Source of the DNA: Marmoricola sp. URHB0036
GTDB lineage: Bacteria > Actinomycetota > Actinomycetes > Propionibacteriales > Nocardioidaceae
DNA length: 64,000 nt
Direction: 5' to 3'
Assembly (NCBI RefSeq): GCF_000426045.1
Contig: NZ_AUEP01000016.1
Span: 1 to 64,000 of the forward strand
Shown here: one piece after another, positions 6,076-37,822 of the stretch
How positions within the stretch are numbered: the first letter of the stretch is position 1
Layout of the letters: every line of letters begins with the position of its first letter
Made by a program: the position numbers and the translations under genes
Notes under the pieces: model-generated
Told to the model about the DNA's origin: nothing
Databases searched by the model: none
What the model saw: the letters and a program-made list of their open reading frames with translations, nothing else

Positions 6076-6089
6076 GGGACTGCGGTCCC
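6076..6089. promoter_or_regulatory. DevR/DosR-like box upstream of the arc operon
   Basis: GGGACTGCGGTCCC is a near-perfect dyad matching the known DosR core GGGACT-WW-AGTCCC at all GGGAC/GTCCC positions. It lies 54 bp upstream of the permease start and 80 bp upstream of the divergent membrane gene at 6170, so it could serve either. No equally good second site was found 22 bp away. Confidence 0.65.
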
Positions 6090-6169
6090 ACAAGGGAGTG
6101 ACGCAGGGCCCTGACTCGTGGGTCGTCCGCGGCGGATCGTGAGGGGCGACGGCGCGACCAGGAGGCGAC

Positions 6170-6667
6170 ATGAAGGAATCGTGGGTTCGACGAGCTGCGT
6201 GGTCACCAGGTCGCGGACTGAGCACGGCCTATCGCTGGACGTGGGCTGCACTGGCCCTGTGCACTGCCATGGCCAGCGCGGTCGCGAGCCTGCAGGCTCT
6301 CACCCCCCTCGTGACCCTGCTGACGCTGGCGACCTTCCTCGGCGTCCTGGTCAGCGGGGGTGTCCTCGTGGCGTGGTCATGTGAGCAGTCGGCGTGGGCT
6401 GCCGTCGTACCGACAGCCGTTGCCTCGGTTCTCCTGACCGCGTGGGTCGCCCTCCTGGTGAGCAGCGTTGGCTGGGCCTGCCTCCTGCTGGTGCTGGTCG
6501 GGGCTTCACCTCTGGTCCTCTCGACCGCCCTTGCCCAGGTCAGTCGCCATGACGCAACCTCGGAGTACCCGACGGTCGAGCAGCTGGTGCGCGACCACGC
6601 CTGGCAGGATGCGGTCCCCGAGGACGCCAGCCGGCCAGGGACAGCGCCGGACCCGCGCGAGGGATAG
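6170..6667 (+). CDS. Hypothetical membrane protein, about four helices
   Basis: I do not recognise a family. The 165-residue product has a short basic N-terminus (MKESWVRRAAW), about four hydrophobic segments between residues 20 and 125, and a soluble acidic C-terminal tail of about 40 residues. The ATG at 6170 is preceded by AGGAGGCGAC, a strong ribosome-binding site, and codon use matches its neighbours, so it is very likely expressed. It ends 3 bp before the next gene, which is itself coupled to an NRAMP transporter, so the three probably form one transcript. The gene is divergent from the arc operon across a 147-bp gap with one DevR-like box. A role in membrane stress or ion homeostasis is possible but unproven. 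Confidence 0.7.
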   Translation: MKESWVRRAAWSPGRGLSTAYRWTWAALALCTAMASAVASLQALTPLVTLLTLATFLGVLVSGGVLVAWSCEQSAWAAVVPTAVASVLLTAWVALLVSSVGWACLLLVLVGASPLVLSTALAQVSRHDATSEYPTVEQLVRDHAWQDAVPEDASRPGTAPDPREG

Positions 6668-6670
6668 GGC

Positions 6671-8068
6671 ATGCAACATCCACTGTCGTGGCGGCGCTGG
6701 CTCGTGGTGGTGGCCGTCGGTGAGCTCGTGGGCTTCGCCGTGCCGGCTGCTGCGGGAATGCTGGCGAGCGAGCTCGTCGCGAGCGCGCAGCTGGTGGTGA
6801 TGCCTGTCGCAGGGCTCTTCGAGGGTGCGGCGCTCGGGTACGCCCAAGTGGTCGTGCTCCGGCGTTCGTGGCCCACTCTCCGCGGAGACGCCTGGGTGCG
6901 GGCCACAAGTCTGGCGGCCGCCGTGGCCTGGTTCCTCGGCATGCTGCCGTCGACCACGCACGACTGGTGGGCTACGTGGCCGGCTGCGTGGGTCGCCGTG
7001 ACGGCCACGATCCTGGGCACCGCCCTCCTCGCGACGATCGGGACCGCGCAGGCGCTCGCCATGCCACCGGGGACGCCGGGCCGGCTTGCGTGGGTGGGCT
7101 GGACGGCTCTGGGCTGGTGTGCGGGCCTCACAGCGTTCAGCCTCGTCGCACCACCGCTGTGGCAGCCCGGCCAGGCAGCGTGGCTGCTGGTTCTCATCGG
7201 CGTGGCCGGTGGTCTCGTGATGGCACTGGCGATGGCCGCCGTCACCGGCGTCGGCGCCGTTCGTCTGGTCGAGCGCGCCAGCCGCACAGACGCGGGCCGG
7301 TCCTTCATGCCGGGGCCACACCTGCTCTCGGCGATGCTCGGCACCCCCGTGTACGACGCGTCCGATGACGAGCTCGGACGTGTCCGCGACCTGGTGGCGG
7401 ACCTGGCCACTGACACCGACCACCCGGCCATCACGCATGTGGTGATCGGTACCGGCGACGGGCGCCGAGCCGTGCTCCCGTACGGAGAGCTGAAGCCGAG
7501 GAGCGGGGGAGGGCTCGGCCTCGAACGCGGCCCCGGGAAGGCCCCGGTGTCGACCCCTGGACGTCCGGCGTTGTTCCTGCGTCGTGACGTGCTCGACGCA
7601 CCCGTCGTCCTCGCCGCACCGCCGGGCCGAACACGCGTGAGCGACGTCATCGTCGAGATCGGCACCGCGGGCGCCCGTGTCATCGGAGTGGACCTCACCC
7701 CGTCGGGAATCGCGCGACGCTTCACCGGGCGCACCCCGACGGCACCACCCCGCGCGCTGCCGCTCTCGCAGGTGCACCTGGTCTCAGCGCACGGCCACGC
7801 CGCCCAGCTGGCCGCACCCGACCCGGCTGTGCTCGAGCTGCCGGCCGACGGGATGGCCGAGGTGCTGACCCGACTTCCGGTTGCGCACGCCCGTGAGATC
7901 CTCCGAGCCGCAGACGGGCGGGTGCGCGAGGACGCCGTACGGCTGCTGCACCCGCGCGTGCGCGCCCGAGTGACGGGCACGGCCGGGCCGCCCCGCCGGA
8001 TGCGTCGCCTCAGCGGCTGGCGCCTCCACCGACCTGGCACGCATCCTCCCGTCGGTGGCAGGAGATGA
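6671..8068 (+). CDS. Membrane protein with PRC-barrel-like and MgtE_N-like domains
   Basis: The 465-residue protein has three parts. Residues 1 to about 200 hold roughly six hydrophobic helices. Residues about 220-330 (GTPVYDASDDELGRVRDL and onward) resemble a PRC-barrel. The C-terminal portion has a short repeat (LPVAHAREILRAADGRVRED) like the alpha-helical intracellular MgtE_N domain that senses magnesium in MgtE channels. A basic tail ends the protein. It overlaps the NRAMP transporter by 4 bp (ATGA), so the two are translationally coupled. PRC and MgtE_N modules are known next to NRAMP-type proteins, where they may gate metal uptake; regulation of the partner is therefore inferred. The N-terminal membrane part is not recognised. 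Confidence 0.7.
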   Translation: MQHPLSWRRWLVVVAVGELVGFAVPAAAGMLASELVASAQLVVMPVAGLFEGAALGYAQVVVLRRSWPTLRGDAWVRATSLAAAVAWFLGMLPSTTHDWWATWPAAWVAVTATILGTALLATIGTAQALAMPPGTPGRLAWVGWTALGWCAGLTAFSLVAPPLWQPGQAAWLLVLIGVAGGLVMALAMAAVTGVGAVRLVERASRTDAGRSFMPGPHLLSAMLGTPVYDASDDELGRVRDLVADLATDTDHPAITHVVIGTGDGRRAVLPYGELKPRSGGGLGLERGPGKAPVSTPGRPALFLRRDVLDAPVVLAAPPGRTRVSDVIVEIGTAGARVIGVDLTPSGIARRFTGRTPTAPPRALPLSQVHLVSAHGHAAQLAAPDPAVLELPADGMAEVLTRLPVAHAREILRAADGRVREDAVRLLHPRVRARVTGTAGPPRRMRRLSGWRLHRPGTHPPVGGRR

Positions 8069-9309
8069 CCGAGGTCGTCGCCCCGCGACGGTCGGGGTCG
8101 AGATCTACTCGGCGCTACCTGCCGCTCCTGGCCGTGCTCGGCCCCGGGTTGCTGGCCGGCCTCTCCGACGATGATCCTGCCGGCATCACGACGTACTCGG
8201 TGCTGGGTGCGGACCACGGCTACGGGTTGTTGTGGGTGTTGTTGCTCTCGACCGTCGCGCTGATCGTCTTCCACGACCTCGGAGCGCGTCTGGGTGTGGT
8301 CACCGGTCAGGGCCTGATCGGTCTCATCCGGCACCGCTACGGCCTGGGTGTGGCATCGGGTGCCCTGCTCGCCCTGGTGATTGCGAACCTGGGGACAGCG
8401 ACGGCCGAGTTCGCCGGCATCGCGGCCGGGGGCGAGCTCCTGGGGATCAGCCGCTACCTCGCGGTGCCAGTGGCGGCCGCGGCCGTCTCGACGCTGGTCC
8501 TCGCCGGCAGCTTCCATCGCGTCGAGCACGTGCTGATGGCACTGGCGTCGGTGTTCCTGGCGTACGTCGCCGCGGCCGTGCTCGCACATCCGGATTGGTC
8601 CGCGGCTTTCAACGGACTGGTCACGCCCCGGATGTCCTTCGGGCACGAGGAGACGTTGATCGTGGCCGCCACCGTCGGCACCACCTTGGCGCCCTGGGGC
8701 CTGAGCTTCATCCAGTCCTACGCCGTGGACAAGAAGCTCACGGTGAAGGACCTGGGCTACGAGCGCACCGACGTCGTCATGGGGGCCCTCCTCACCGGGA
8801 TCATCGGGTTCTTCGTCGTGGTCGCCTGTGCGGCAACGCTGCACGAGACGCACACGAGCATCGTCAGTGCCGGTGATGCTGCGGCAGCGCTGGCACCCGT
8901 GGCCGGGGACCTCGCCGGCCTCTGCTTCGCCGTCGGCCTGATCGGCGCCGCTCTTCTCGCGGCAGCGATCCTGCCGCTCTCCACGGCGTACTCGATCTGC
9001 GACTTCACCGGTTCGGAGGCGGCGCTCGACTGCACGTTCTCCGAGGCCCGGCTGTTCTACCTGAGCAACGTCGTGATCACGACGGTGGCTGCGAGCGTCG
9101 TGCTGATCCCTGCCGTGCCCCTGGTGCCACTCCTCGTCTCCACACAGATGCTCAACGCGGTGCTGCTGATCCCGTTGCTGGTGCTCATGACGCGCCTCTC
9201 GCGTGACACCAGCATCGTGGGTGATCACGCGGTCTCGCGGCCGCTGGCCGCCGTACAGGCGCTCGTCGTCGTGGCCGTGGTGGCCTGCGTGGTCCTGCTG
9301 CTGGTCTGA
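8065..9309 (+). CDS. NRAMP-family divalent metal transporter
   Basis: This inner-membrane transporter of 414 residues has about 11 helices and probably takes up Mn2+, Fe2+ or Mg2+ with protons. The first helix has DDDPAGITTY near residues 35-44. Canonical NRAMP proteins have DPGN here for metal coordination, so the asparagine is replaced, as in the more distant Mg2+/unknown-substrate branches. Helix 3 has ANLGTATAEFAGIAAG, and helix 6 (TTLAPWGLSFIQSYAVDKK) lacks the methionine of the MPH motif. The altered ligands suggest it is not a standard MntH. It is translated from an ATGA overlap with the membrane/PRC/MgtE_N-like gene, which may act as its sensor. Confidence 0.85.
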   Translation: MTEVVAPRRSGSRSTRRYLPLLAVLGPGLLAGLSDDDPAGITTYSVLGADHGYGLLWVLLLSTVALIVFHDLGARLGVVTGQGLIGLIRHRYGLGVASGALLALVIANLGTATAEFAGIAAGGELLGISRYLAVPVAAAAVSTLVLAGSFHRVEHVLMALASVFLAYVAAAVLAHPDWSAAFNGLVTPRMSFGHEETLIVAATVGTTLAPWGLSFIQSYAVDKKLTVKDLGYERTDVVMGALLTGIIGFFVVVACAATLHETHTSIVSAGDAAAALAPVAGDLAGLCFAVGLIGAALLAAAILPLSTAYSICDFTGSEAALDCTFSEARLFYLSNVVITTVAASVVLIPAVPLVPLLVSTQMLNAVLLIPLLVLMTRLSRDTSIVGDHAVSRPLAAVQALVVVAVVACVVLLLV

Positions 9310-9325
9310 CGGCGTTGTCCCGGAC

Positions 9326-9361
9326 AGGCACAAGGTCCCTCGCGCGGGTGACGGCCGACCC
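9326..9361. promoter_or_regulatory. Pair of DevR-like boxes upstream of the USP-acetyltransferase operon
   Basis: The two sites are 9326-9339 (right half GGTCCC intact, left half poor) and 9348-9361 (GTGACGGCCGACCC). They begin 22 bp apart, two helical turns, as in tandem DosR sites. They lie about 90 bp upstream of the start at 9450. Each is weaker than the best sites in the window. Confidence 0.45.
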
Positions 9362-9449
9362 TGCGGAGGTGTGCTGTCTGCGCGGCAGCATGAGGTCAGG
9401 TTCCGCGACGCCACCGCGAGAACCCCCAAGACGAGGCAGGAGGTCACCG

Positions 9450-10403
9450 ATGCTGCGTCTCGAACCGGCCAAGGTCCTCATGTGCGTCAGCCCCGGGGAG
9501 GACTTCGAGGCGGCGCTCGACCTCACCGTCGCGGAGGCCACGCGTCGTGGTTGCGGCATCCACGTTGCCCTCGCCGTTCGGCCTGTGTTGTTGGGCCCGA
9601 CCGGCGTCGCGGACCTCAGCCTGGTCGAGGGGGAGTGGCGCAGGTACGGCACCGACTTCCTCGTCGACTGCGAACGTAGGGTCAGCAAGGAGATCGGGGT
9701 CGACACACCCGTGAGCAGCGAGATCATCCACGGTTCGGTCGTGCCGGCGCTGGTCGAGGTGAGCCAGAACGCCGCGATCGTCGTGATGCAGCACCACCGG
9801 ATGGACCGTGCCCGACACGTACCCACGCTGTCGGTCACCAACGGCGTTGCCGCCCGTGCGCATGCGCCGGTCGTGGCGGTGCCCGACTCCTGGCGCGAGG
9901 TCGGCCAACGCAGCGACGTGATCGTCGTGGGGGTGGAGGACGCCGTCAGCTCGTCCCACGTGACGCGGTGGGGGTTCGAGGAGGCGCAACGGCTGGGCGG
10001 CAGCGTTCGTCTGGTCCGCGCCTGGTTCTTCTCCGCGGCGTTCGACGGCGACGTGTTCGAGGGGCAGGCCGGACTCGTGCACGCGGCCTACGTCCGCGAG
10101 GAGGTACGCCGTGAGTTCGCGGATCTGGTGCAGAGCTTTCCCGACGTTCCCTGCGAGGTCGTGGCAGTGCACGGCCCGGCGGCGGACGCGCTCGTGGCGC
10201 AGTCCAGGTCTCACGACGTACGCCGCATCGTGGTCGGCCGCCACGAACCGACGCTGCCGCTGGGTTCGCACCTCGGTCCGGTGACGAGGGCTGTGCTGAA
10301 CCACTCGTCCTGTCCCGTCGTGGTCGTCGACCCGCGAGAAACGCCCGCCACGACCGCCGCCTCGAGGCGGACGCCCGAGTCCGCATCGCCACCCAGGAGC
10401 TGA
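9450..10403 (+). CDS. Tandem universal stress protein (divergent)
   Basis: This 317-residue cytoplasmic protein consists of two USP (UspA-fold) domains, about residues 8-150 and 158-300. The second starts with SDVIVVGVEDA and ends with SSCPVVVVDP, a typical closing strand. The ATP-binding signature G-x2-G-x9-G-(S/T) is degenerate in both halves (QHHRMDRARHVP and GRHEPTLPLGS), so nucleotide binding is doubtful. The start is ATG 9450, six bases after AGGAGGT. The stop overlaps the ATG of the acetyltransferase gene (TGATG). Linkage of a USP to a GNAT/acyl-CoA synthetase protein recalls the mycobacterial acetylation of universal stress proteins, so the neighbour may modify it. Confidence 0.88.
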   Translation: MLRLEPAKVLMCVSPGEDFEAALDLTVAEATRRGCGIHVALAVRPVLLGPTGVADLSLVEGEWRRYGTDFLVDCERRVSKEIGVDTPVSSEIIHGSVVPALVEVSQNAAIVVMQHHRMDRARHVPTLSVTNGVAARAHAPVVAVPDSWREVGQRSDVIVVGVEDAVSSSHVTRWGFEEAQRLGGSVRLVRAWFFSAAFDGDVFEGQAGLVHAAYVREEVRREFADLVQSFPDVPCEVVAVHGPAADALVAQSRSHDVRRIVVGRHEPTLPLGSHLGPVTRAVLNHSSCPVVVVDPRETPATTAASRRTPESASPPRS

Positions 10404-13117
10404 TGTTCGTGCTGTCTGACCAAGGCCAGACCCCCCGGGCCGCCGACGTCCTGCTGGCTGACGGCAGCGTGGCCGTCATCCGACCGATCACGGCCCAGGA
10501 CGCTGACGAGCTCCACGCGCTGCATCGAGACGTCTCCGACGACTCCGTCCGGCTCCGGTTCTTCACCGTGGGGCGGCACGCCGCGCACGAGTACGTCGAC
10601 CACCTCGTGCGCGACCATCCCCTGGCTCTCGTCGCGGAGAGAGGCGGGAAGATCCTCGCCGTCGCGACGGCCGAGGGAGTGGATGCCCGCACCGCCGAGG
10701 TGGCCTTCCTCGTGGAGGACGGCAGTCACGGGCTCGGCATCGGCAGCTTGCTGCTGGAGCACCTGGCGGCCGCCGCACGAGCAAGCGGCATCGGCACCTT
10801 CGTCGCCGAGGTCCTGATCGAGAACCGCGCCATGCTCGACGTGTTCACCGACGCGGGCTTCACCTTGACCAAGCGCATCGACGACGACGTGGTCGACGTC
10901 CGGCTCGAAACGGCCAGCACCGCCCGCGGCCAGGCGGTCGCGGATGCCAAGGACCGCCGGGCCGAAGCACGCTCCTTGAATCCGCTCCTGTATCCCCACA
11001 GCGTGGCGCTGGCGGGGGTACGCAGCGACGGGCAGGGGATCGGGCGTGCGGTCCTCGACAACATCCGCGCCGGTGGGTTCACGGGCGAGCTCTTCGTCGT
11101 GCACCCGCGCGTCCCGGTGATCGACGGGATCACTGCGGTCGCGACCTTCGCCGATCTCCCCGGCCCGGTCGACCTGGCCATCATCGCGGTTCCGGCACCC
11201 CACGTGCTCTCCGCCGTGACCGATGCTGCCGCGATCGGCGTGCCGACGGCCGTGGTGATCAGCTCCGGGTTCCAGGAGCTCGGAGCCGAGGGTGCCCGGC
11301 TCCAGGGTGAGCTGGCAGCGTTCGCGCGCGCCCACAGCATCCGGGTGGTGGGACCCAACTGCCTGGGCCTCATGAGCAACCACCCGGAGATCCAGCTCAA
11401 TGCCACGTTCACCCGCGTGCTTCCGCCGGACGGCGGGGTGGCCGTGGCGACCCAGTCCGGTGGCGTGGGGATCGTGCTGGCCGACCTCGCGCGTGAGCTC
11501 GGGCTCGGTATCGGCTCACTGGTCTCGCTCGGCAACAAGGTGGACGTGTCCGGCAACGACCTGCTCGCCGCCTGGACCGACGATCCCCGAGTCACCGCAG
11601 CAGCGCTCTACCTGGAGTCCTTCGGGAACGCACCCAAGTTCGCACGCATCGCGCGCCGCTTCTCCGAGCGCAAGCCGCTGCTGGCCGTCGTCGGTGGACG
11701 TTCCGACGGGGGACGCCGTGCCGGTGCCTCGCACACCGCGGCCGCGGCCACTCCCGCGATCGGCGTTGCGGCGCTGTTCGCCCAGGCCGGCGTGATCGGT
11801 TGTGACGGCGCCGAGGACCTCGCGGAGGCCGCACTCCTGCTGACGCGCGAACCCCTCACGGCCGGTCCTCGTGTGGGCATCGTGAGCAACGCCGGCGGCA
11901 TGGGTGTGTTGGCCGCGGACGCAGCGACCACCTGCGGCCTCGTCGTTCCCGAGCTGTCAGGGGCGACGCGTGCCCAGCTCGCCGCACACGTCCTGGGCAC
12001 CTCGGGAACGTCCAACCCTGTGGATGCTGGTGCCACCGTGTCCCCGGACGACCTGGCCACCATGGTGGAGGTCGTCCTCGAGTCCGGGGAGGTCGACGCC
12101 GTGCTCGTCGAGATCGTGGCGACCAGCCTGACCGATGTGGATGCTGCCGCGGCGGCGGTGGCACTGGCCCGGGCACGGAACCCGCGCCTGCCGGTGCTCG
12201 TCGTCGCCCAAGGACTGGGGGGCAGCCCCCTCGACCCCTGCGGCTTGACCGTCTTCGGCTCGTCCGTCGCCGCGCTGCGTGCGCTCGGTCGGGCGGCCCG
12301 GTATGCCGCCTGGCTGGCCGAGCGCGCAACGGACGTCGAGGTCGACGGCGTGGGTGCCCAGCCGGGGGGTCTGGGCGCCCTCCTGCGGCATCGGGCCGAT
12401 GCCGCGGCGTTGCTGACCGGCGGGGCGGCCGCACACGACGGTTGGATCGGTGCCGAACCCGCCGCGGGGCTGCTGGCGGACTCCGGGTTGCAGCCTGCCG
12501 GCGCCCTCGCGTGCGGCCCGGACGCCGCGGCGGCCCTGGCAGAGTCGGTCGGTTTCCCGGTGGTGATCAAGGTGGCCGACGGCGACGTCGTGCACCGCAC
12601 CGAACGCGGTCTGGTGCGCGTCGGCCTCGCCTCTTCCGACGCGGTGGCCAAGGCGGTCACGTCCTTCGAGCGAGAGCTCGGCCGATCGAACGTGCCGGTT
12701 CTCGTGCAGCCCGTCGCCTCCGGTGTGGAGATCGCGGTCGGCATGGTCCGCGACCCCTCAGTCGGACCGTTGGTGATGGTGGGTGCCGGTGGCGTGACTA
12801 CCGACCTCCTCGGCGATCGGGTCTACCTGGTGCCACCCGTGCTGCCGAGCGACGTCCGGCGTGCCTTGCGGGGACTTCGGTGCTGGCCGTTGCTCGACGG
12901 CTTCCGGGGGAGCGATCCGGTCGACGTCGACGCGCTCGTCGAGGTCGTGGTTGCCAGCGCCCGACTGGCCCAGGAGGTCCCCCTCGTGGCGGAGCTGGAC
13001 ATCAACCCCTTGATGGTGTCCGGCTCGGGGTGCGCACTCGTCGACGTGAAGCTGCGTCTGGCCAGCCCGACGGCGCCCACGTCGGACGAGCCGCGGCAGC
13101 TGCGCCGTACGATCTGA
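10403..13117 (+). CDS. Protein acetyltransferase: GNAT domain fused to NDP-forming acyl-CoA synthetase-like domains
   Basis: The 904-residue protein probably acetylates lysines of target enzymes such as acetyl-CoA synthetase, or universal stress proteins. Residues about 20-170 form a GNAT domain with the acetyl-CoA loop GSHGLGIGSLLLEHL. Residues about 190-670 resemble the CoA-binding and succinyl-CoA ligase-like domains of ADP-forming acetyl-CoA synthetase (VGPNCLGLMS, ATQSGGVG, GASHTAAAAT, the last matching the phosphohistidine loop). Residues about 680-895 look like an ATP-grasp domain, with FPVVIKVADGDVVHRTERG and ELDINPL. The GNAT-first order differs from enterobacterial Pat, where GNAT is C-terminal, but is familiar in actinobacteria. 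No cyclic-nucleotide domain is seen, unlike mycobacterial PatA. It is co-transcribed with the USP gene. Confidence 0.88.
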   Translation: MFVLSDQGQTPRAADVLLADGSVAVIRPITAQDADELHALHRDVSDDSVRLRFFTVGRHAAHEYVDHLVRDHPLALVAERGGKILAVATAEGVDARTAEVAFLVEDGSHGLGIGSLLLEHLAAAARASGIGTFVAEVLIENRAMLDVFTDAGFTLTKRIDDDVVDVRLETASTARGQAVADAKDRRAEARSLNPLLYPHSVALAGVRSDGQGIGRAVLDNIRAGGFTGELFVVHPRVPVIDGITAVATFADLPGPVDLAIIAVPAPHVLSAVTDAAAIGVPTAVVISSGFQELGAEGARLQGELAAFARAHSIRVVGPNCLGLMSNHPEIQLNATFTRVLPPDGGVAVATQSGGVGIVLADLARELGLGIGSLVSLGNKVDVSGNDLLAAWTDDPRVTAAALYLESFGNAPKFARIARRFSERKPLLAVVGGRSDGGRRAGASHTAAAATPAIGVAALFAQAGVIGCDGAEDLAEAALLLTREPLTAGPRVGIVSNAGGMGVLAADAATTCGLVVPELSGATRAQLAAHVLGTSGTSNPVDAGATVSPDDLATMVEVVLESGEVDAVLVEIVATSLTDVDAAAAAVALARARNPRLPVLVVAQGLGGSPLDPCGLTVFGSSVAALRALGRAARYAAWLAERATDVEVDGVGAQPGGLGALLRHRADAAALLTGGAAAHDGWIGAEPAAGLLADSGLQPAGALACGPDAAAALAESVGFPVVIKVADGDVVHRTERGLVRVGLASSDAVAKAVTSFERELGRSNVPVLVQPVASGVEIAVGMVRDPSVGPLVMVGAGGVTTDLLGDRVYLVPPVLPSDVRRALRGLRCWPLLDGFRGSDPVDVDALVEVVVASARLAQEVPLVAELDINPLMVSGSGCALVDVKLRLASPTAPTSDEPRQLRRTI

Positions 13118-13142: not shown

Positions 13143-14078
13143 CTAGAGGCGCGGGAAGAGCCGGGTCGAGTCCTCACCGACCTCGTGTAGTGCCCTGGCC
13201 CTGCCCACGATCAGCTTGTCCGGACGCCCCACGATCCGCTTGTTCTTCTCGGGGTAGTCGAACTGGGCGAGCACGAAACGGATCGCTTCGAGTCGTGCGC
13301 GCTTCTTGTCGTTGCTCTTGATCACCGTCCACGGGGCATGGCGTGTGTCGGTGTAGAAGAACATCGCTTCCTTGGCCTCGGTGTAGGCGTCCCACTTGTC
13401 CACGCTCGCCCGGTCCGTGGGGGAGAGCTTCCACTGCTTGATGGCGTGCATGGAACGCGCAGCGAACCTGGCCGCCTGCTCCGCCTGGCTCACCGAGAAC
13501 CACAGCTTGATCAGGTGGGTTCCGGAGTCCACGAGCATCCGCTCGAACTCGGGGCAGGAGCGCATGAACTCGAGGTACTGCTCGGGTGTGCAGAAGTCCA
13601 GGACGCGTTCGACACCTACGCGGTTGTACCAGGAGCGGTCGAACAGGACGATCTCGCCACCGCTCGGCAGGTGGGCGACGTAGCGCTGGAAGTACCACTG
13701 GCTCTTCTCCACCTCGGTCGGCACCGGTAGCGCGACCACGCGGGCGCCGCGCGGGTTGACATGTTCGGTGAAACGCTTGATCGAGCCGCCCTTGCCGGCA
13801 GCGTCGCGCCCCTCGAAGAGGATCGCGACCTTCTGGCCGGTGTCCTTGATCCAGACCTGGAGCTTCAGCAGCTCGATCTGGAGCTCGCGCTTGTGGTGCT
13901 CATAGGTCCGGCGGCCGATCTTGGTGTCGTAGGGATAGCCCTCGCGCCACGCGGACCGCGCCTCCTCGCTCGCGGGCACGGCCGGGCCGCCGACCTCCTG
14001 ACGCAGGTCGACCAGCTCGTCGAGCTCGTGCTTGTGCAGCGCTGTGTAGTCGATGGCGGCTTCGGTGCTCTTCCCCAT
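13143..14078 (-). CDS. ppk2: Polyphosphate kinase 2 (class I-like)
   Basis: The enzyme moves phosphate between polyphosphate and nucleoside diphosphates, and in this family usually regenerates ATP or GTP from polyphosphate. The product is 311 residues, a single PPK2 domain. Visible are the Walker A block FEGRDAAGKGGSIKRF, the Walker B block VLFDRSWYNR and a lid segment with SPTDRASVDKWDAYTEAK. The start is ATG 14078 (MGKSTEAAIDY) with an upstream AGAGGA site; the frame continues upstream without similarity. Two strong DevR-like boxes lie 77-112 bp upstream, implying use of stored polyphosphate during hypoxia. It is convergent with the acetyltransferase gene across 25 bp. Confidence 0.94.
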   Translation of the reverse strand: MGKSTEAAIDYTALHKHELDELVDLRQEVGGPAVPASEEARSAWREGYPYDTKIGRRTYEHHKRELQIELLKLQVWIKDTGQKVAILFEGRDAAGKGGSIKRFTEHVNPRGARVVALPVPTEVEKSQWYFQRYVAHLPSGGEIVLFDRSWYNRVGVERVLDFCTPEQYLEFMRSCPEFERMLVDSGTHLIKLWFSVSQAEQAARFAARSMHAIKQWKLSPTDRASVDKWDAYTEAKEAMFFYTDTRHAPWTVIKSNDKKRARLEAIRFVLAQFDYPEKNKRIVGRPDKLIVGRARALHEVGEDSTRLFPRL

Positions 14079-14154
14079 GGTTCCTCTCCCAGGTCCTCGG
14101 CGACGATCGGCGGCCGAGGACACCACGGTGGCTGCCGGGGGGGAAGCCCGGACA

Positions 14155-14190
14155 GGGCCGCAGGTCCTTTGCTGGAGGGACGCTCGTCCC
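14155..14190. promoter_or_regulatory. Tandem DevR-like boxes upstream of ppk2
   Basis: GGGCCGCAGGTCCT (14155-14168) and GGGACGCTCGTCCC (14177-14190) begin 22 bp apart. The second is a perfect dyad in both GGGAC/GTCCC halves. They sit 77 and 99 bp upstream of ppk2. The distal one also lies just after the cydDC stop, so a minor terminator role cannot be excluded. Confidence 0.7.
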
Positions 14191-18522: not shown

Positions 18523-18538
18523 GGCGGTGTCCTCGGGT

Positions 18539-20079: not shown

Positions 20080-20107
20080 GTGGCCCGAGGATCGCCAGGC
20101 CCGCGTG

Positions 20108-22242: not shown

Positions 22243-22277
22243 TCGACGCTCCCATGTGCACGGACTAGATTCAGGCC

Positions 22278-30301: not shown

Positions 30302-30311
30302 GGCGATCTCC

Positions 30312-31199
30312 TCAGTGAGTTCTGGCAACGGGGACGACGGCGACCGGGACACCGGCGTTCTCGACCACCGCCACCGAGACCGAGCCGTAGAAGGCTTGGG
30401 CGAGGCGGCTGTCCTGGTGGGCCCCGACGACGATCAGGTTCATCCGTTCACCGAGCCGGACGAGAGCCTCCTGGGGGATCCCGCGGGCCATCGTGGTGGT
30501 GACGTGTACGTCGGGGTACTTCTCGGTCATGCCGGCCACGGCCTCGGAGAGGGCGATGCGCTCGTCCTGGAGGTCGGCGGGGCTGTCGGACACCACGTAG
30601 GCACCCATGGTCCCGGCGTGGATGTCCCACACGCAGTCGAGGATGGTGAGCGGCAGGCCGTGCAGCGAGGCCTGGCGGAACGCGAGCTCGAGCACGGGCT
30701 GCGACCCGGCGGAGGCGTCCACGCCGACCAGGATCCCGTTGCGGACCTTGCCGGCGTTCGTCGGGCGCACCACCACGACGGGGCAATGCGCGTGCCGCAC
30801 GAGGAAGACACTCGCCGAGCCCAGGAGCAGGCTGCGCAGCTGTCCGCGACCGCGCGATCCGACGACGAGCATGGCGGCGTGCTCGGAGAGCTGCAGCAGC
30901 GCCTCTCGGGGGTCGACGAGGTCGAAGACCTCGTGGACCTCGAGGTCAGGGGCTGTTGCCTCGACCTTGGCGCGAGCCTCGCTGAGCACCTCGTGTCCCG
31001 CGGCGTCCAGGATCGAGCGCGAGTCCCGGGAGTCGACGATGGCGGCATCCAGGAACGCCGGGGTGACCGAGTTGACGGTGTGGACCAGCGTCAGGGGGCG
31101 GTGCTCGGCCACCGCCTGCCCGATGGCCCAGTGGAGGGCACGCATCGAGTGGGGGGAGCCGTCGACACCGACGACGATGCTTCCGGGTTTGCTGTGCAT
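30312..31199 (-). CDS. Tandem universal stress protein, ATP-binding type
   Basis: This 295-residue protein is the first gene of the three-gene USP operon. It has two UspA-fold domains: the first begins PGSIVVGVDGSPHSMRALHWA and ends LVVGSRGRGQLRSLLLGSAS, a full nucleotide-binding signature; the second begins GILVGVDASAGSQP and has the weaker VGAHQDSRLAQAFYGSVS. The start is ATG 31199 (MHSKPGS) with AGGAGGAG upstream; the open frame upstream runs through the promoter and is rejected. Two or three DevR-like sites begin 57-98 bp upstream. Similar double USPs (Rv2623 type) belong to the mycobacterial DosR regulon. Confidence 0.92.
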   Translation of the reverse strand: MHSKPGSIVVGVDGSPHSMRALHWAIGQAVAEHRPLTLVHTVNSVTPAFLDAAIVDSRDSRSILDAAGHEVLSEARAKVEATAPDLEVHEVFDLVDPREALLQLSEHAAMLVVGSRGRGQLRSLLLGSASVFLVRHAHCPVVVVRPTNAGKVRNGILVGVDASAGSQPVLELAFRQASLHGLPLTILDCVWDIHAGTMGAYVVSDSPADLQDERIALSEAVAGMTEKYPDVHVTTTMARGIPQEALVRLGERMNLIVVGAHQDSRLAQAFYGSVSVAVVENAGVPVAVVPVARTH

Positions 31200-31255
31200 G
31201 ACTCCTCCTGGCTTCGAGATCGGGCGCGACTCGGTCGCTGCCTCCACCTTGCTCG

Positions 31256-31310
31256 GGGACCAGCTGTCCTCGGCAGGGCTCAACGTCCCGGGTCTCGGGA
31301 CCTCCGACCC
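31256..31310. promoter_or_regulatory. Row of DevR-like boxes upstream of the USP operon
   Basis: GGGCTCAACGTCCC (31276-31289) and GGGACCTCCGACCC (31297-31310) start 21 bp apart. A third, irregular dyad GGGACCAGCTGTCC lies at 31256-31269. The proximal standard site begins 77 bp upstream of the USP start codon, the same distance as at ppk2, the DoxX-like gene and the gene at 33863. Confidence 0.6.
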
Positions 31311-31395: not shown

Positions 31396-32013
31396 CTACC
31401 GGAGGGCGGGGAAGCGTTCCACGGCCTCGGTCCTGGTCCACCAGCGGCCCAGGCCCCAGGTGTCGCCGGCGTTGGTCAGCGCCAGGGCGACGACCGTGAT
31501 GGCGCCGAGGACGTGCTCGTCGATGATCGGGTTGTTGGCCGGCGGCAGGACCACACTCCACATCAGCACGTAGAGCAGTCCACCGGCGACCGCCGCGAAC
31601 CGCATGCCCACCCCGAAGGTGAGTGCAGTTCCGATACCGAGCAGACCGAGCATGAACGCCCAGTCGGCCCAGGCTGCTCCCGCAATCGAGTGGTAGAAGT
31701 CCGTGAACGGACCATCGGCACCGAAGGCCAGGAAGCCCTTGGTGGGGCTGCCGCCATGGATCCAGGCCGCGTCGCCGAAGCGATCGACGGTCCCGTTCGG
31801 CGCGCGTCCGGTGGCGAACCCGAGGGCCAGGAGCTTGTCGAAGAACGCCCACAGGAACGTGAATCCGAAGGCGATGCGCAGGACCGCCAGTACGCGGCGT
31901 GCCGCAGTGGTCAGGGGGGCGGTGCCCGTGTTCTCGGCATCCGTCGTGGTGTGGGCCGCGTGGTGCGGGTGCGGCACGTCCAGGTGATCCATGGGGCTGT
32001 GACCGACGGGCAT
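31396..32013 (-). CDS. DoxX-family membrane protein
   Basis: This 205-residue protein has a histidine-rich, soluble N-terminus (MDHLDVPHPHHAAH) followed by about four hydrophobic helices with DoxX-type features (LRIAFGFTFLWAFFDKLLALG, GIGTALTFGVGMR). DoxX/DoxD proteins are subunits or relatives of thiosulfate:quinone oxidoreductase and of a mycobacterial membrane oxidoreductase complex. The histidine-rich leader might bind metal; that is speculative. The start is ATG 32013 after AGGAGG. It has its own paired DevR-like boxes and a terminator, so it is transcribed alone. It lies next to the second Acg-type gene, echoing the DoxX-Acg pair near 21 kb. Confidence 0.85.
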   Translation of the reverse strand: MPVGHSPMDHLDVPHPHHAAHTTTDAENTGTAPLTTAARRVLAVLRIAFGFTFLWAFFDKLLALGFATGRAPNGTVDRFGDAAWIHGGSPTKGFLAFGADGPFTDFYHSIAGAAWADWAFMLGLLGIGTALTFGVGMRFAAVAGGLLYVLMWSVVLPPANNPIIDEHVLGAITVVALALTNAGDTWGLGRWWTRTEAVERFPALR

Positions 32014-32088
32014 GACGTCCGCCTCCTTCGGTTGATCAGACAGTTGACCTTGTGACCTCAGGCTTTCGCGCGACGGGGACGGGTGGCA

Positions 32089-32124
32089 GAGCCGATGGTC
32101 ACTGATGTCGGGGGACTAGGTCCC
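32089..32124. promoter_or_regulatory. Tandem DevR-like boxes upstream of the DoxX-family gene
   Basis: GAGCCGATGGTCAC (32089-32102) and GGGGACTAGGTCCC (32111-32124) start 22 bp apart, 76 and 98 bp upstream of the start at 32013. The distal one is the better dyad. Confidence 0.6.
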
Positions 32125-32161: not shown

Positions 32162-33124
32162 TCAGGGGAGCAGCACGTCCTCGAGATCTCGGCGAGGCGT
32201 GGGGACCTGCGGTGGACGCGAGCTCTCCTGCCATCCGACGTGGACCAGGACCTGCGGATGCCCGAGGTCGTCGAGCAGGCTGTGGCGCAGCTGCTGCCGG
32301 GTGCGCGCGACCTCGATCACCTGGGTCTCCGGCGTCAGGGACAGGCCACCCTGCGCAGCGAGGATCCAGATGGCGCTCAGCGCCTGGCCAGTGGCGAGCC
32401 AGGCCGACTGGTCGTCAGCCGAGGTGAACAGGAGCAGCAAGGCGTCGCTCGATCCCGTCCGTGCTGAGGAGGCACCGGGGTTGAAACGGTCCGGCGAACG
32501 CTCGACACCGCCGCTGGGGCGAGGCGAAGCGTTGCTGACGGGGACGCCGTCCACCGGGCTGTGTGCGATCCAGTCCTCCTGCTCCGTGGCGATGTCGGTG
32601 TTCTCGCGCTCTTCGCGCCCGGCCTCCTCGACGAGCGTCCCGACCCGCACCGCGAGTCCTGGGTCGGTGACGGGCAGCGCGTGGGCGCCCCAGCCGGTTG
32701 CCGCGTCGGCCAGGTGGTGCAGACGCGTGCCCGGGACCTCCCAGTCGGTGAATCCGCGACGGTCGGTCATCCGGTTCTCCAGTGCGGCCATCGTCTGCAC
32801 CGATGCGTCGGTGGTCTCACCGGGTTCGAGGTGGATGCGTGCCAGGAAGTCAGCGTTGTCGGGATCGGGTCGCAGGTGCGTCCCGGCCACGAGCCCGAAC
32901 CCCTCGGCGGCCACGACCAGGTGATGCAGCGCGGCGCCACAGCTGATCGTGAGCGCGCGGCCCTCGGGGTCGATCTGGTCGAGCTGGCGCCCGCGGTCGG
33001 CGTACAGCTCGACGGTGTCCGCGGCGGTCAGGCGCCACGCCCACGGTTGGGTGTTGTGGATGCTCGGTGCGCGACAGGCCATCCGGACGAGCTCGCGGGT
33101 CACCTTCATGGTCGGGGCAGTCAT
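32162..33124 (-). CDS. Acg-family nitroreductase-like protein (second copy)
   Basis: This 320-residue paralogue of the protein at 20108-21082 shares ACRAPSIHNTQPWAWRL, DPEGRALTISCGAALHH, NRMTDRRGFTDWEVPG and the C-terminal PQVLVHVGWQESSRPPQ. It should bind FMN in the Acg manner. The ATG at 33124 (MTAPTMKVTRE) has no visible ribosome-binding site, nor does the ATG five codons on. A DevR-like site lies only 37 bp upstream, where a DosR site would overlap the -35 element of a leaderless transcript, so leaderless translation from 33124 is plausible. The C-terminus PRRDLEDVLLP closely matches the PRRQLEDVLLT end of the first copy. Confidence 0.88.
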   Translation of the reverse strand: MTAPTMKVTRELVRMACRAPSIHNTQPWAWRLTAADTVELYADRGRQLDQIDPEGRALTISCGAALHHLVVAAEGFGLVAGTHLRPDPDNADFLARIHLEPGETTDASVQTMAALENRMTDRRGFTDWEVPGTRLHHLADAATGWGAHALPVTDPGLAVRVGTLVEEAGREERENTDIATEQEDWIAHSPVDGVPVSNASPRPSGGVERSPDRFNPGASSARTGSSDALLLLFTSADDQSAWLATGQALSAIWILAAQGGLSLTPETQVIEVARTRQQLRHSLLDDLGHPQVLVHVGWQESSRPPQVPTPRRDLEDVLLP

Positions 33125-33160
33125 GGTCTGATGGTGACGTGCACACGGTGGGCGCTGACA

Positions 33161-33196
33161 GAGACCGCAGACCCGTCACGTGTGGACCCAGGTCCC
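33161..33196. promoter_or_regulatory. Tandem DevR-like boxes upstream of the second Acg gene
   Basis: GAGACCGCAGACCC (33161-33174) and TGGACCCAGGTCCC (33183-33196) start 22 bp apart. The second contains the perfect dyad GGACC-CA-GGTCC. The first begins 37 bp upstream of the start codon, closer than at the other promoters. Confidence 0.6.
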
Positions 33197-33863: not shown

Positions 33864-33941
33864 GAGTTCTCCAGGGTCGTGGCGGTGAACTGCTGTCTCC
33901 GCGGTGCTGCTGACCCTAGAAAGGGGAGAGCTCGACGAGCA

Positions 33942-33978
33942 GGGTCGGACGACCCGACTCGGAGGTGCAGAAAGTCCC
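33942..33978. promoter_or_regulatory. DevR-like boxes upstream of the gene at 33863
   Basis: GGGTCGGACGACCC (33942-33955) is a perfect dyad in form GGGTCG-GA-CGACCC. A half-conserved site at 33965-33978, GTGCAGAAAGTCCC, starts 23 bp further on. The first begins 79 bp upstream of the start codon. Confidence 0.5.
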
Positions 33979-34000
33979 GTGGAGAGCGGCCCGAGCATCC

Positions 34001-34066
34001 GTGACCTTCGGCCCTTCGGGTGCAGTTCCTCCACGCGCGAGGCTCGAACCGAGGGTCCCCGGTCCG
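34001..34066. promoter_or_regulatory. DevR-like sites upstream of the E2-like acyltransferase
   Basis: GTGACCTTCGGCCC (34001-34014) and GGGTCCCCGGTCCG (34053-34066) match the core loosely. They are 52 bp apart, not the usual 22. The second ends 22 bp before the start at 34089, close for an activator site, so it may be coincidental. Confidence 0.35.
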
Positions 34067-34946: not shown

Positions 34947-34953
34947 CTTCCCG

Positions 34954-37626
34954 TCAGCGCCGGGCGTCGCCGCGCAGCACCGCTCGCGCGGCTTCGAGGC
35001 GAGCGACGGGGAGGCGGAAAGGTGAGCACGAGACGTAGTCGAGTCCTGCGCTCTCGAAGAACTGGATCGAGTCGGGGTCTCCTCCGTGCTCGCCGCAGAC
35101 GCCGAGGGCGAGGTTGGGTCGCACCTGGCGACCCTTGGCCACCGCGGTGGTGATGAGCGAGCCGACGCCCTCGGTGTCGAGCGACTCGAAGGGCGAGACT
35201 GCCAGGACTCCCTCGGCGAGGTACGCCGGGAAGAACGCCGCCTCCACGTCGTCGCGGGAGAAGCCCCACGTCATCTGGGTCAGGTCGTTGGTCCCGAACG
35301 AGAAGAAGTCGGCTTCGCTCGCGATCTGGTCGGCGGTCAGGGCGGCGCGGGGCACTTCGATCATCGTGCCGACGCGGTGGGGAACGGCGAAGCCGCGCCT
35401 GGACTCCACCTCCTCGGCAACACCGGCCAGGACCTGACGCATGCGGGCCAGCTCTCCAACCGTCGAGACCAGGGGCACCATGATCTCCGGCCTCGGATCG
35501 CCGCCCACCGCCAGACGATCGGCCGCGGCCTCCAGGATCGCTCGCGCCTGCATGGCGACCAGACCGGGGATGACCAGTCCGAGGCGCACACCGCGTAGAC
35601 CCAGCATCGGGTTCTGCTCGTGGGCGGCACGCACGGCGGCCAGGAGTCGGTGCCGGGTGGGGTTGCCGCGGCCCTGCTCGTCGTCGAGGGCCACCTCGAC
35701 CGACAGCTGGGTCAGGTCCGGCAGGAACTCGTGCAGGGGCGGGTCGATCAACCGGATCGTGACCGGCAGGCCATCCATCTCGGCGAGGATCCGGGTGAAG
35801 TCCTCGCGCTGAAGCGGAAGCATCTCGGCCAGCGCCGCGTCCCGCTCCGAGTCGTTGGTGGCCAGCACCAGCCTCTCGACCAGCACCCGGCGCGGGCCGA
35901 GGAACATATGCTCGGTACGGCACAACCCGATGCCCTGTGCACCGAACCGGCGGGCCCGTGCGGCGTCCTCGGGGGTGTCGGCGTTCGCGTGCACCTCCAT
36001 CCGGCGTACACCGTCGGCATGGGTCAGCAAGGCCGCCACTGCATCGACCACGGGATCCTCGACCGCCTTGCCGTCGAAGTACCTGACGACGGCCGAGTCG
36101 ACGACCGGAACCGCGCCGGCGTAGACCTCTCCCGTCGTCCCGTCGAGAGAGACGACGTCCCCCTCGTGGAGGACCGGCCCCCCACGCACCTGGACCTGCC
36201 TCTGCACGAGATCGACGAGCAGGGCCTCCGCTCCGCAGACGCACGGTCGTCCCATCCCACGCGCCACCACGGCGGCATGCGAGGTCTTGCCGCCTCGACT
36301 GGTCAGGGTGCCGCACGCTGCGACCATGCCTTGGAGGTCGTCCGGGTTCGTCTCCTCGCGGACCAGGATGACGTCTTCGCCCCGCTCGCTCCACGTCACG
36401 GCGGTCCCGGCGTCGAGCACGACCCGGCCGACGGCAGCGCCTGGGGACGCGCCGATCCCGACGGTGAGGCTCTGCTTGGCGACTGCATCGTCGAAGCGCG
36501 GGAACATGAGGCGCGCCAGCTGCGCTCCGGTCACTCGGAGGACCGCTTCGTCGAGATCCACGAGTCCTTCACCGGCCATGGCGTGCGCGATCCGGAACGC
36601 GGCCTCCGGCGTGCGTTTGCCGACCCGGGTCTGGAGCATCCAGAGCTTGCCTGCCTCGATGGTGAACTCGATGTCGCACATGTCCCGGTAGTGGCGCTCG
36701 AGAGCGGCCATGTTCCTCAGCAGCTCTTCGTACGACGGCTTGTCCAGCTCGATGAGGTCACTGAGAGGCACCGTGTTGCGGATGCCCGAGACGACGTCCT
36801 CGCCCTGTGCGTGCTGCAGGTAGTCGCCGTACACCCCGCTCGCGCCCGTGGCAGGGTCGCGGGTGAACGCCACGCCGGAGCCGGAGGATGCGCCGCGGTT
36901 GCCGAAGACCATGGCCTGCACGTTGACTGCCGTGCCCAGGTCCTCGGAGATGTGCTCGCGCTGCCGGTAGAAGGTGGCGCGCGGCGTGTGCCAGGAGTCG
37001 AAGACAGCCCGGACGGCGAGGTCGAGCTGCTCCCGGGGATCCTGGGGAAACCCGCGCCCGGCGTGCTGCAGCACCAAACCCTGGTAGGTGCTCACCAGCT
37101 CGCGCAGGTCGTCAACGGCGAGGCCGGCATCGTCGACGCTCGATCGGTCGTCCTTGAGCTCGGCGAGCGCGGTGGCGAACACCTTGGGCTCGATCCCGAG
37201 CACGGTGCTGCCGAACATCTGGATGAGACGCCGGTAGGAGTCGAGGGCGAAGCGCTCGCCACCGTGGCGCGCCAGTCCGTTCACGGAGTCGTCGTTCAGT
37301 CCTACGTCGAGGACGGTCTCCATCATGCCCGGCATCGAGAACTTGGAGCCTGACCGGACCGAGACGAGCAGGGGATCTGAGGGGTCACCGAGTCGGCGGT
37401 CCATCTGCCGTTCGAGCCGGGCGAGGTGCTCGCCCACCTCCGTGTCGAGGCCGTCTGGCACCACACCGTCGCGCAGGTACGCGCGGCAGGCCTCGGTGGT
37501 GATGGTGAATCCCGGCGGAACCGGTAGCCCGAGCCGGCACATCTCGGCAAGGTTGGCGCCCTTGCCTCCCAGCAGGTCCGCCTGGGATCGGTCGCCTTCT
37601 GCGAAGTCACGTACGAAGCCGGTCAC
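34954..37626 (-). CDS. ppdK: Pyruvate, phosphate dikinase
   Basis: PPDK interconverts pyruvate, ATP and phosphate with phosphoenolpyruvate, AMP and diphosphate; in anaerobic settings it can spend diphosphate to make ATP in glycolysis. The protein is 890 residues, full length. The N-terminal ATP-grasp region opens FAEGDRSQADLLGGKGANLAEM, the central phosphohistidine is in TLTSRGGKTSHAAVVARGMG and the C-terminal PEP domain has LRGVRLGL and the active-site cysteine in GVCGEHGGDP. The start is GTG 37626, the position of the family N-terminus, with no obvious ribosome-binding site; a 38-codon open frame ends 10 bp upstream and might couple translation. A DevR-like box lies upstream of that small frame. 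Confidence 0.96.
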   Translation of the reverse strand: MTGFVRDFAEGDRSQADLLGGKGANLAEMCRLGLPVPPGFTITTEACRAYLRDGVVPDGLDTEVGEHLARLERQMDRRLGDPSDPLLVSVRSGSKFSMPGMMETVLDVGLNDDSVNGLARHGGERFALDSYRRLIQMFGSTVLGIEPKVFATALAELKDDRSSVDDAGLAVDDLRELVSTYQGLVLQHAGRGFPQDPREQLDLAVRAVFDSWHTPRATFYRQREHISEDLGTAVNVQAMVFGNRGASSGSGVAFTRDPATGASGVYGDYLQHAQGEDVVSGIRNTVPLSDLIELDKPSYEELLRNMAALERHYRDMCDIEFTIEAGKLWMLQTRVGKRTPEAAFRIAHAMAGEGLVDLDEAVLRVTGAQLARLMFPRFDDAVAKQSLTVGIGASPGAAVGRVVLDAGTAVTWSERGEDVILVREETNPDDLQGMVAACGTLTSRGGKTSHAAVVARGMGRPCVCGAEALLVDLVQRQVQVRGGPVLHEGDVVSLDGTTGEVYAGAVPVVDSAVVRYFDGKAVEDPVVDAVAALLTHADGVRRMEVHANADTPEDAARARRFGAQGIGLCRTEHMFLGPRRVLVERLVLATNDSERDAALAEMLPLQREDFTRILAEMDGLPVTIRLIDPPLHEFLPDLTQLSVEVALDDEQGRGNPTRHRLLAAVRAAHEQNPMLGLRGVRLGLVIPGLVAMQARAILEAAADRLAVGGDPRPEIMVPLVSTVGELARMRQVLAGVAEEVESRRGFAVPHRVGTMIEVPRAALTADQIASEADFFSFGTNDLTQMTWGFSRDDVEAAFFPAYLAEGVLAVSPFESLDTEGVGSLITTAVAKGRQVRPNLALGVCGEHGGDPDSIQFFESAGLDYVSCSPFRLPVARLEAARAVLRGDARR

Positions 37627-37636
37627 GTCAGCGCTC

Positions 37637-37753
37637 TCAGTGTCGGGGCGAGCGCGTCGTCGGCGTGCCTGCCAGATGACGGCACAGGATCGCGCGGGAC
37701 CTGGTCAGCGAGGTCGGTCGCGCGGCGAGACGGGGCGAGGTGGATGTGCTCAT
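37637..37753 (-). CDS. Putative 38-residue leader peptide before ppdK
   Basis: A short frame starts at ATG 37753, nine bases after GGAGG, and ends 10 bp before the ppdK GTG. The product is basic and rich in Ser, Thr and Arg (MSTSTSPRLAARPTSLTRSR at its N-terminus), with one cysteine and no recognised family. Its good ribosome-binding site, contrasted with none at ppdK, suggests that ribosomes load here and reinitiate at ppdK. It lies 56 bp downstream of a DevR-like box, so it would be in the same transcript. It could equally be a chance frame. Confidence 0.4.
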   Translation of the reverse strand: MSTSTSPRLAARPTSLTRSRAILCRHLAGTPTTRSPRH

Positions 37754-37808
37754 GGTGGAGTGCCTCCTTGATTGGTCTGAGCCTCGCGGCCAGGCGCGGA
37801 GGTCGGCA

Positions 37809-37822
37809 GGGTCGTAGGTCCC
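37809..37822. promoter_or_regulatory. DevR-like box upstream of ppdK
   Basis: GGGTCGTAGGTCCC matches nine of the ten GGGAC/GTCCC core positions. It is 56 bp upstream of the putative leader start and 183 bp upstream of the ppdK start. No second site was seen 22 bp away. Confidence 0.55.

Follow-up and report, generated by a model that had tools for sequence, protein, structure and literature searches.

Most work on the response regulator DosR (DevR) concerns mycobacteria and, under the name OsdR, Streptomyces. Microlunatus phosphovorus, the source of a further related system, belongs to the same order as the organism considered here. We analyzed a 64-kb stretch of DNA (contig C15, positions 1–64000, i.e. 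NZ_AUEP01000016.1; hereafter the window) from the 4.83-Mb genome of Marmoricola sp. URHB0036, which is assembled into 22 contigs. Its first 38 kb contain a devR-devS pair and a series of genes preceded by 14-bp palindromes. This 36-kb island is very probably, by the mechanism proposed below, a DevR (DosR/OsdR-type) hypoxia regulon of a Nocardioides-like actinomycete, a remote relative of the tuberculosis bacillus. Among named genomes, the DevR loci nearest to that of the window are mostly from Nocardioides.

Four described systems are relevant for comparison. DevR of M. tuberculosis binds cooperatively to at least two close-packed sites, the proximal one overlapping the −35 region (PMC3029386). 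OsdR of S. coelicolor recognizes the box AGGGCCGATCGGCCCT and is autoregulated, with targets encoding a universal stress protein (USP), a nitroreductase and pyruvate phosphate dikinase (ppdK) clustered near osdR; ppdK (SCO0208) is a predicted target (PMC5069765). The DevSR-like pair PolS-PolR of M. phosphovorus is tied to oxygen and polyphosphate; the site reported for PolR is GTTCACnnnnnGTTCaC, and PolR did not bind the two ppk2 promoters tested (PMC6754071). For Rhodococcus equi, a regulon has been computed with the DosR consensus; arginine deiminase and phosphoketolase are mentioned in the available text of that report without reference to DosR (PMC2947987).

The window shares with M. tuberculosis the relatives of DevR and DevS, a palindrome of the GGG-C-N4-G-CCC type, and Acg and USP members, whereas the cargo of the island, which is presumably induced by hypoxia, differs in including arcDABC, cytochrome bd, polyphosphate kinase 2 (PPK2) and phosphoketolase. 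With OsdR it has in common the type of box, the autoregulation box and the presence of USP, Acg/nitroreductase and ppdK genes beside the regulator. The view of the initial annotation that the gene content resembles the DosR and OsdR clusters is thus borne out by this overlap (PMC5069765, Table 1). The same table lists nitrate reductase, but not arginine deiminase, cyd, PPK2 or phosphoketolase; conversely, nitrate reductase was not met in the part of the window open reading frames (ORFs) that was scanned. In contrast to the PolR system, ppk2 is preceded here by a DosR-type pair of boxes, and the reported PolR site (PMC6754071) is wholly unlike the palindrome that precedes devR in the closest Nocardioides relatives. 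The GTTCACnnnnnGTTCaC repeat does not occur in the window with fewer than two mismatches; three occurrences with two mismatches were found, a count made without a shuffled control. No account of DosR in Nocardioides, or of an arc operon under DosR, was found in the literature searched, as far as its available text extends. What is new is the energy-metabolism cargo and the exact promoter spacing; the switch itself is of a known kind.

The genes left of 38 kb are, in order, arcDABC, a divergent membrane protein/PRC/Nramp set, a USP gene with a GNAT-acyl-CoA synthetase gene, ppk2, cydA-cydB-cydDC, an Acg oxidoreductase gene, a CBS protein gene, devR-devS, the phosphoketolase gene (xfp), three USP genes, a DoxX-like membrane protein gene, a second acg, a membrane protein gene at 33863, an acyltransferase-domain gene and ppdK. 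The initial annotation had listed 19 sites upstream of many of these genes as matches to GGGNC-N4-GNCCC. All 19 of the 14-mers were found where it had placed them, and the observation of DevR-type sites is real. However, only six match the consensus in full, while eight agree at seven of the eight fixed bases and five at six.

The literal consensus is no more frequent than expected by chance: it occurs seven times in the window (6.96 expected from shuffles) and 230 times in the genome, compared to 429 for a reversed control pattern. None of the seven matches in the window is located beyond 38 kb, and the one at 18146 falls within cydB. The IUPAC pattern was therefore rejected as a statistic. 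Its frequency would suit the view that the sites are a by-product of high G+C content and palindromes, devoid of regulatory meaning. Pairs defined by match counts showed a moderate excess (11 at a spacing of 22 bp in 1–38 kb; 5.68 per 64 kb of Markov sequence). Since the literal pattern was uninformative and this excess only moderate, a palindromic matrix was learned by expectation-maximization without a single base of the window, from the 250-bp regions upstream of devR in its 22 closest relatives (L005–L026). These relatives were selected after 24 upstream regions had been viewed, two of which (L027 and L028) contained no convincing box in that stretch. The matrix converged de novo on ccGGGACCATGGTCCCgg, with A or T as the two middle bases.

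At a threshold of 7 bits, the held-out matrix recovered 13 of the 19 sites. It detected 21 matches in 1–38 kb, none in 38–64 kb and 43 in the own-genome background (twenty 20-kb stretches, 400 kb in total), which corresponds to 4.08 per 38 kb. At 11 bits, the respective numbers were 8, 0 and 7, and at 5 bits 31, 8 and 98. A weight-matrix scan, which the initial annotation had suggested, thus separates the two parts of the window, and the left part exceeds the genomic background. The near-absence of sites beyond 38 kb, also claimed previously, holds at 7 bits; at 5 bits the eight matches indicate that this region contains some weak ones. First-order Markov sequence yielded a mean of 9.98 matches per 64 kb at 7 bits, with a maximum of 15 in 40 runs. 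Of 300 trials with column-permuted palindromic matrices, 35, 12, 2 and 6 reached the 1–38 kb count (at 5, 7, 9 and 11 bits, respectively). These thresholds were set after inspection of the data.

Base composition alone can thus occasionally produce as many matches, and the case for the sites rests on where they lie and how they are arranged. According to our gene map, built from ORFs and family matches, intergenic DNA constitutes 9% of the sequence, yet it contains 14 of the 21 matches of at least 7 bits and all eight of at least 11 bits. This placement, together with the pair spacing and the phasing of −10 elements described below, all obtained with the held-out matrix, and the low own-genome background, speaks against a by-product of base composition, an explanation that can be dismissed with near certainty. 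Strong boxes also occur elsewhere in the genome (L105–L109 and L111; L110 is the cydA box), but no full element was found there.

Most of the sites are halves of pairs with a spacing of 21, 22 or 23 bp; the initial annotation had written eight of its 11 groups as pairs, but had overlooked pairing as a rule and the −10 spacing described next. When one box of at least 7 bits and a partner of at least −9 bits were required, 12 pairs were detected in 1–38 kb, none in 38–64 kb and 11 in the 400-kb background (40-bp bins). In nine of 12 promoters (usp-A, ppk2, devR, CBS, usp triplet, DoxX-like, acg2, 33863 and ppdK), a hexamer NAnnnT begins 30.5 or 31.5 bp past the center of the proximal box, and none of the 12 has such a hexamer at offsets of 18.5–29.5 or 32.5–38.5 bp. 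The chance of a hexamer at this position (hereafter the ruler) in intergenic sequence is 7.7% per promoter; in 2000 random draws of 12 positions, with three offsets allowed, the mean was 0.76 and the maximum 5. The combination of pair and hexamer, with one box of at least 7 bits, was found in 14 rows (10 distinct places by hand count) in 1–38 kb, in none in 38–64 kb and in two in 400 kb. In a mirror test, five of the 12 promoters had a hexamer on the upstream side: two belong to the promoters that devR and CBS share, a third points toward the 6170 gene, and the remaining two lie beside xfp and 33863.

Since the offset had been noticed before the window was tested, the check in relatives matters. 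Around 165 strong boxes from 80 devR loci, partner boxes of at least 3 bits occur 8, 13 and 5 times at 21, 22 and 23 bp (out of 330 orientations; other offsets give 0–5). TAnnnT hexamers peak at 30.5 (5), 52.5 (15), 53.5 (7) and 54.5 bp (4), with 0–2 elsewhere. The boxes of 22 of these 80 loci had trained the matrix, but partners and hexamers had no part in the training. Permuted-matrix controls found only 12 and 44 boxes, which makes them a weak control. If the hexamer is a −10 element with its first base at −12, the centers of the proximal and distal boxes would lie at about −42.5 and −64.5, and this predicted layout agrees with that reported for DevR of M. tuberculosis (PMC3029386). At −12, many of the predicted −10 elements have C, A or G in place of the usual T, which may make them dependent on an activator. 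With this assignment, the devR and acg2 transcripts would be leaderless, and the USP gene at 9.4 kb probably starts at 9450 rather than 9390, provided that the predicted promoter is right.

The product of devR has its best match in the Protein Data Bank to M. tuberculosis DevR (3c3w; E 9.5e-70 over 204 residues). Its recognition helix, AEKTVKNYVS, is identical in the 3c3w alignment, in agreement with the earlier remark that it is close to that of DosR, and the equivalent of Asp54 is kept (residue 65, counted by hand). The GAF-A domain of DevS aligns with DosT (2vzw) and DevS (2y8h), and its kinase domains match as well. The conserved HPPM stretch presumably holds the haem-ligand His, and GAF-A may bind haem. 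The DevR protein of the window, with its receiver and NarL-type HTH domains, belongs to the DevR/DosR class, and its DNA binding is predicted to be phosphorylation-dependent and cooperative. The homology of DevR and DevS, the palindrome upstream of devR, the promoter-like positions of the boxes and the OsdR-like gene content support the reading of the island as a DevR regulon, as proposed in the initial annotation.

The boxes could instead be bound by another LuxR-type regulator, or be shared by DevR and a paralogue. The genome contains 77 DevR matches, and a helix resembling that of DevR, VEKTVRNHVTRML, was found in one of these paralogues (C2:157256, L115; eight loci searched with one pattern), and the palindrome does not accompany devR in most of 58 distant loci. 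On the other hand, devR itself is preceded by the palindrome in the closest relatives, the nearest paralogue is only 43% identical, so that DevR has no close paralogue in this genome, and the C2 locus has one strong single box. Similarly, no close paralogue of DevS was found, the seven other genome matches all beginning at residue 314 or later. Control by a different regulator, alone or together with DevR, is highly improbable. The C2 box (C2:153511, L236:4512; GGGACATAGGTCCC, 14.5 bits) is located 4 kb from the paralogue, in a region of flagellin-like genes (flagellar naming by eye).

The conservation of the boxes was examined in related genomes, which are not independent of one another. Of the 22 closest loci, 21 have a box of at least 10 bits before devR, an in-sample result obtained with the training set. 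Beyond these loci (L027–L084), 12 of 58 upstreams reach 7 bits, compared to 5.5% of 2320 random windows; the other 46 of these devR genes from more distant actinomycetes remain below this score within 250 bp upstream. The devR box thus characterizes the nearest clade and occurs in a minority of loci beyond it. For the other genes, upstreams were compared with a 95% null of random windows, which itself includes true boxes; rows below 38% identity (a limit waived for USP), rows whose match starts after residue 45 and rows with less than 120 bp of upstream sequence were left out. The null was exceeded for cydA in 17 of 18 upstreams, CBS 7/8, the DoxX-like gene 16/22, acg1 13/17, acg2 10/15, usp1 23/37, usp2 13/25, usp3 24/40, uspA 2/9, the acyl-CoA synthetase 4/6, arcA 2/5, arcD 0/2, xfp 1/5, the 33863 gene 1/3 and devS 9/58, and for the internal negatives cydDC and OTC (ornithine carbamoyltransferase) in 1/16 and 0/6, respectively. 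Some acg and usp rows share a promoter region or a paralogue, and the box counted for the CBS rows also belongs to the devR regions used for training. Homologues of the DoxX-like gene are present in 24 of the 80 devR loci.

Separate searches for arcD, ppk2, xfp and ppdK covered 197 genomes of the family each. The rows tested, with the own row in the totals, were 29 of 77 for xfp, 29 of 60 for ppk2, and 29 of 94 plus seven named loci for ppdK; L138 was left out for lack of upstream sequence. Boxes of at least 7 bits were found upstream of arcD in seven of 15 rows (the second arcD of the genome being among the misses), compared to none of 75 gene-body windows. Among the matches listed, such boxes precede ppk2 in 6/29 rows (gene-body windows, 1.1%), xfp in 7/29 (1.5%) and ppdK in 7/36 (6.1%); for ppdK, among the matches listed, 6/36 reach at least 12 bits (0.3%), and the rows L220 and L011, which carry an identical box, may be one genome. 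Pair and hexamer of ppk2 are kept in L147 and L150, box and hexamer in L149, L152 and L156. The arcD boxes vary in position, with a hexamer near the ruler in 5/15 rows (L135, L137, L139, L140 and L142), which for the most part do not have the best boxes. The conservation counts indicate that cyd is a near-constant member of devR-linked loci, while other members are gained and lost by lineage; as targets, the less usual arc, ppk2, xfp and ppdK are patchily conserved.

Several of these results weigh against the island being a DevR regulon as a whole: the chance frequency of the literal consensus, the six listed sites below 7 bits, the seven of 21 matches located inside genes, the early notice of the ruler offset, the low share of distant devR upstreams with a box, and the minority of ppk2, xfp and ppdK upstreams and of arcD hexamers just described. 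In addition, NAnnnT was not found at the ruler position for arcD, cydA and xfp (in cydA, TAACCA lies one base closer, as judged by eye), no credible partner accompanies the ppdK box, and the cydA partner is very weak.

Alternatively, DevR would control only a core (devR, CBS, cyd, USP, ppk2, DoxX-like and Acg), the boxes of arc, xfp, ppdK and 33863 being due to chance or decay in the vicinity of a real regulon. Consistent with such a restriction, arcD, xfp and 33863 have weak scores or no hexamer, the xfp and ppdK boxes are patchily conserved, and the arcD boxes of relatives mostly have neither partner nor hexamer. Against it stand the contrast between arcD upstreams and gene bodies, the arc pair with its 22-bp spacing, the ppdK hexamer on the ruler and the prediction of ppdK as an OsdR target in Streptomyces (PMC5069765). 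Limitation to the core is rather unlikely.

According to the wider DevR regulon proposed here, falling oxygen would cause the haem-GAF kinase DevS to phosphorylate DevR, as suggested by the homology of both proteins. DevR dimers would then bind cooperatively to the primary and secondary 14-bp palindromes, on the same face of the DNA and 21–23 bp apart, at about −64 and −42 as judged from sequence, the proximal dimer lying over the −35 region and probably recruiting RNA polymerase to weak −10 elements. The targets activated in this way would be devR itself, the gene of the CBS protein and the cytochrome bd operon. Within this lineage, control by DevR would extend to arginine fermentation (arcDABC), the polyphosphate kinase, the USPs, the Acg oxidoreductases and ppdK, probably also to phosphoketolase, the outcome being ATP without oxygen. 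We infer the binding, phosphorylation, role of haem and hypoxic induction from these likenesses.

The claim of a complete arginine deiminase operon was confirmed, arcC having been located at its distal end. The arginine deiminase (ADI) scores 498 bits with NF002381 (cut-off 414) and 454.5 with TIGR01078 (below 489.1), and OTC 389.9 with TIGR00658 (cut-off 280.85); ArcD is an amino-acid permease by Pfam, the antiporter models being below their cut-offs. The hexamer GATCGT (6135–6140) lies on the ruler and faces the 6170 gene (+), and the arc box pair looks bidirectional, with the GATCGT side directed toward the divergent membrane-protein/PRC/Nramp set. An IS-type transposase gene (rve; 84–1313) at the contig end adjoins arcC. 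The genome contains four ADI matches and a second arcD-OTC-arcC set, whose arcD is 83% identical; its description as an operon without arginine deiminase proved wrong, as an ADI gene is encoded close by on the opposite strand. Beside the other arc/ADI loci of the genome, no DevR box pair was found, although L238 has single boxes (9.6 and 8.8 bits), so that exclusive control of the window arc copy is not proven.

The coordinates of all features are summarized in Table 1. Two names used previously stood only in part: the DoxX assignment rests on a non-significant Pfam match, and the BON match of the CBS protein is below the gathering score, while its CBS part is strong. The box at 34001 is absent from both the previous list and the 12 ruler promoters. 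Between the ppdK promoter and the GTG start of ppdK there is an open frame of about 38 codons (37637–37753, −), which is either a leader peptide or nothing.

Table 1. Genes, boxes and related loci of the DevR island (box scores in bits, held-out matrix; scores in the order of the boxes named)
Feature	Position	Strand	Details
arcDABC (permease/antiporter-like protein, arginine deiminase, ornithine carbamoyltransferase, carbamate kinase)	1478–6022	−	
arcC, carbamate kinase	1478–2368	−	NF009008 389.2 (cut-off 361); TIGR00746 350.6 (below 358.25)
Membrane protein (6170–6667), PRC-barrel protein, Nramp transporter	6170–9309	+	Divergent from arc
USP and GNAT/ADP-forming acetyl-CoA synthetase-like protein	9450–13117	+	
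ppk2, polyphosphate kinase 2	13143–14078	−	TIGR03707 363.9 bits (cut-off 301.8)
cydA, cydB, cydDC (cytochrome bd oxidase, CydDC-like ABC transporter)	14198–19978	−	
Acg-family FMN oxidoreductase 1	20108–21085	−	NF047509 284.5 bits (cut-off 199)
CBS-domain protein, weak BON match	21552–22154	−	Pfam CBS 117.5 bits; BON 21.7 bits (gathering score 27)
devR, NarL/LuxR-type response regulator	22278–22943	+	Pfam Response_reg and GerE
devS, sensor kinase	23069–24763	+	Pfam GAF-GAF-HisKA_3-HATPase
xfp, phosphoketolase	24946–27396	+	
Three USP genes	28449–31236	−	
Membrane protein, DoxX-like	31396–32013	−	Pfam E 0.32 (non-significant)
Acg-family FMN oxidoreductase 2	32162–33124	−	NF047509 265.8 bits
ppdK, pyruvate phosphate dikinase	34954–37626	−	GTG start at 37626
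arc pair (6076, 6098)	6076–6111		Between arcD (−) and 6170 gene (+); 9.3, 5.9; spacing 22 bp
Box 9326, weak partner 9348	9326–9361	+	Before USP/GNAT-acyl-CoA synthetase; 12.2, −5.0; CAGCAT 9386–9391
ppk2 pair (14177, 14155)	14155–14190	−	13.4, 11.6; CACCGT 14125–14130
cydA box 20066, very weak partner 20089	20066–20102	−	19.1 (best in window), −8.4
CBS-BON/devR pair (22207, 22229)	22207–22242		Between genes; 7.8, 5.6
devR hexamer	22266–22271	+	TAGATT
CBS hexamer	22178–22183	−	CAGGCT
Phosphoketolase pair (24848, 24871)	24848–24884	+	1.3, 12.1; without ruler −10
USP triplet pair (31297, 31276)	31276–31310	−	9.6, 14.6; CAAGGT 31246–31251
DoxX-like pair (32111, 32089)	32089–32124	−	10.0, 9.5; AAGCCT 32060–32065
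Acg 2 pair (33183, 33161)	33161–33196	−	7.4, 1.9; CACCAT 33131–33136; leaderless start predicted
33863-gene pair (33965, 33942)	33942–33978	−	1.6, 0.7 (low); TAGGGT 33913–33918 on ruler
Box 34001, weak partner 33979	33979–34014	+	Before acyltransferase-domain gene; 11.4, −7.2; GAGGCT 34039–34044
ppdK box	37809–37822	−	14.5; partner position 37831, −12.5; GAGGCT 37780–37785
Listed sites below 7 bits	9348, 22229, 24848, 33161, 33942, 33965		−5.0, 5.6, 1.3, 1.9, 0.7, 1.6
Other arc/ADI loci	C6 49.3–56.2 kb; C8:105118; C10:115631		L237 and L145; L239; L238, respectively

It may tentatively be proposed that the DosR circuit of Nocardioidaceae is less a host-dormancy program than a general switch to an oxygen-free energy supply, drawing on arginine fermentation, phosphoketolase, polyphosphate and a high-affinity oxidase. 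Genes would join it via one fixed module (box – 22 bp – box – 30.5 bp – weak −10), membership would be readable from geometry alone, and the ancestral job of the circuit may have been fermentation. A compact DosR island with a quantitative promoter ruler, found outside mycobacteria and Streptomyces, provides a model for the activation of transcription by DevR, and makes it testable which metabolic genes the DosR circuit gains and loses across actinomycetes.

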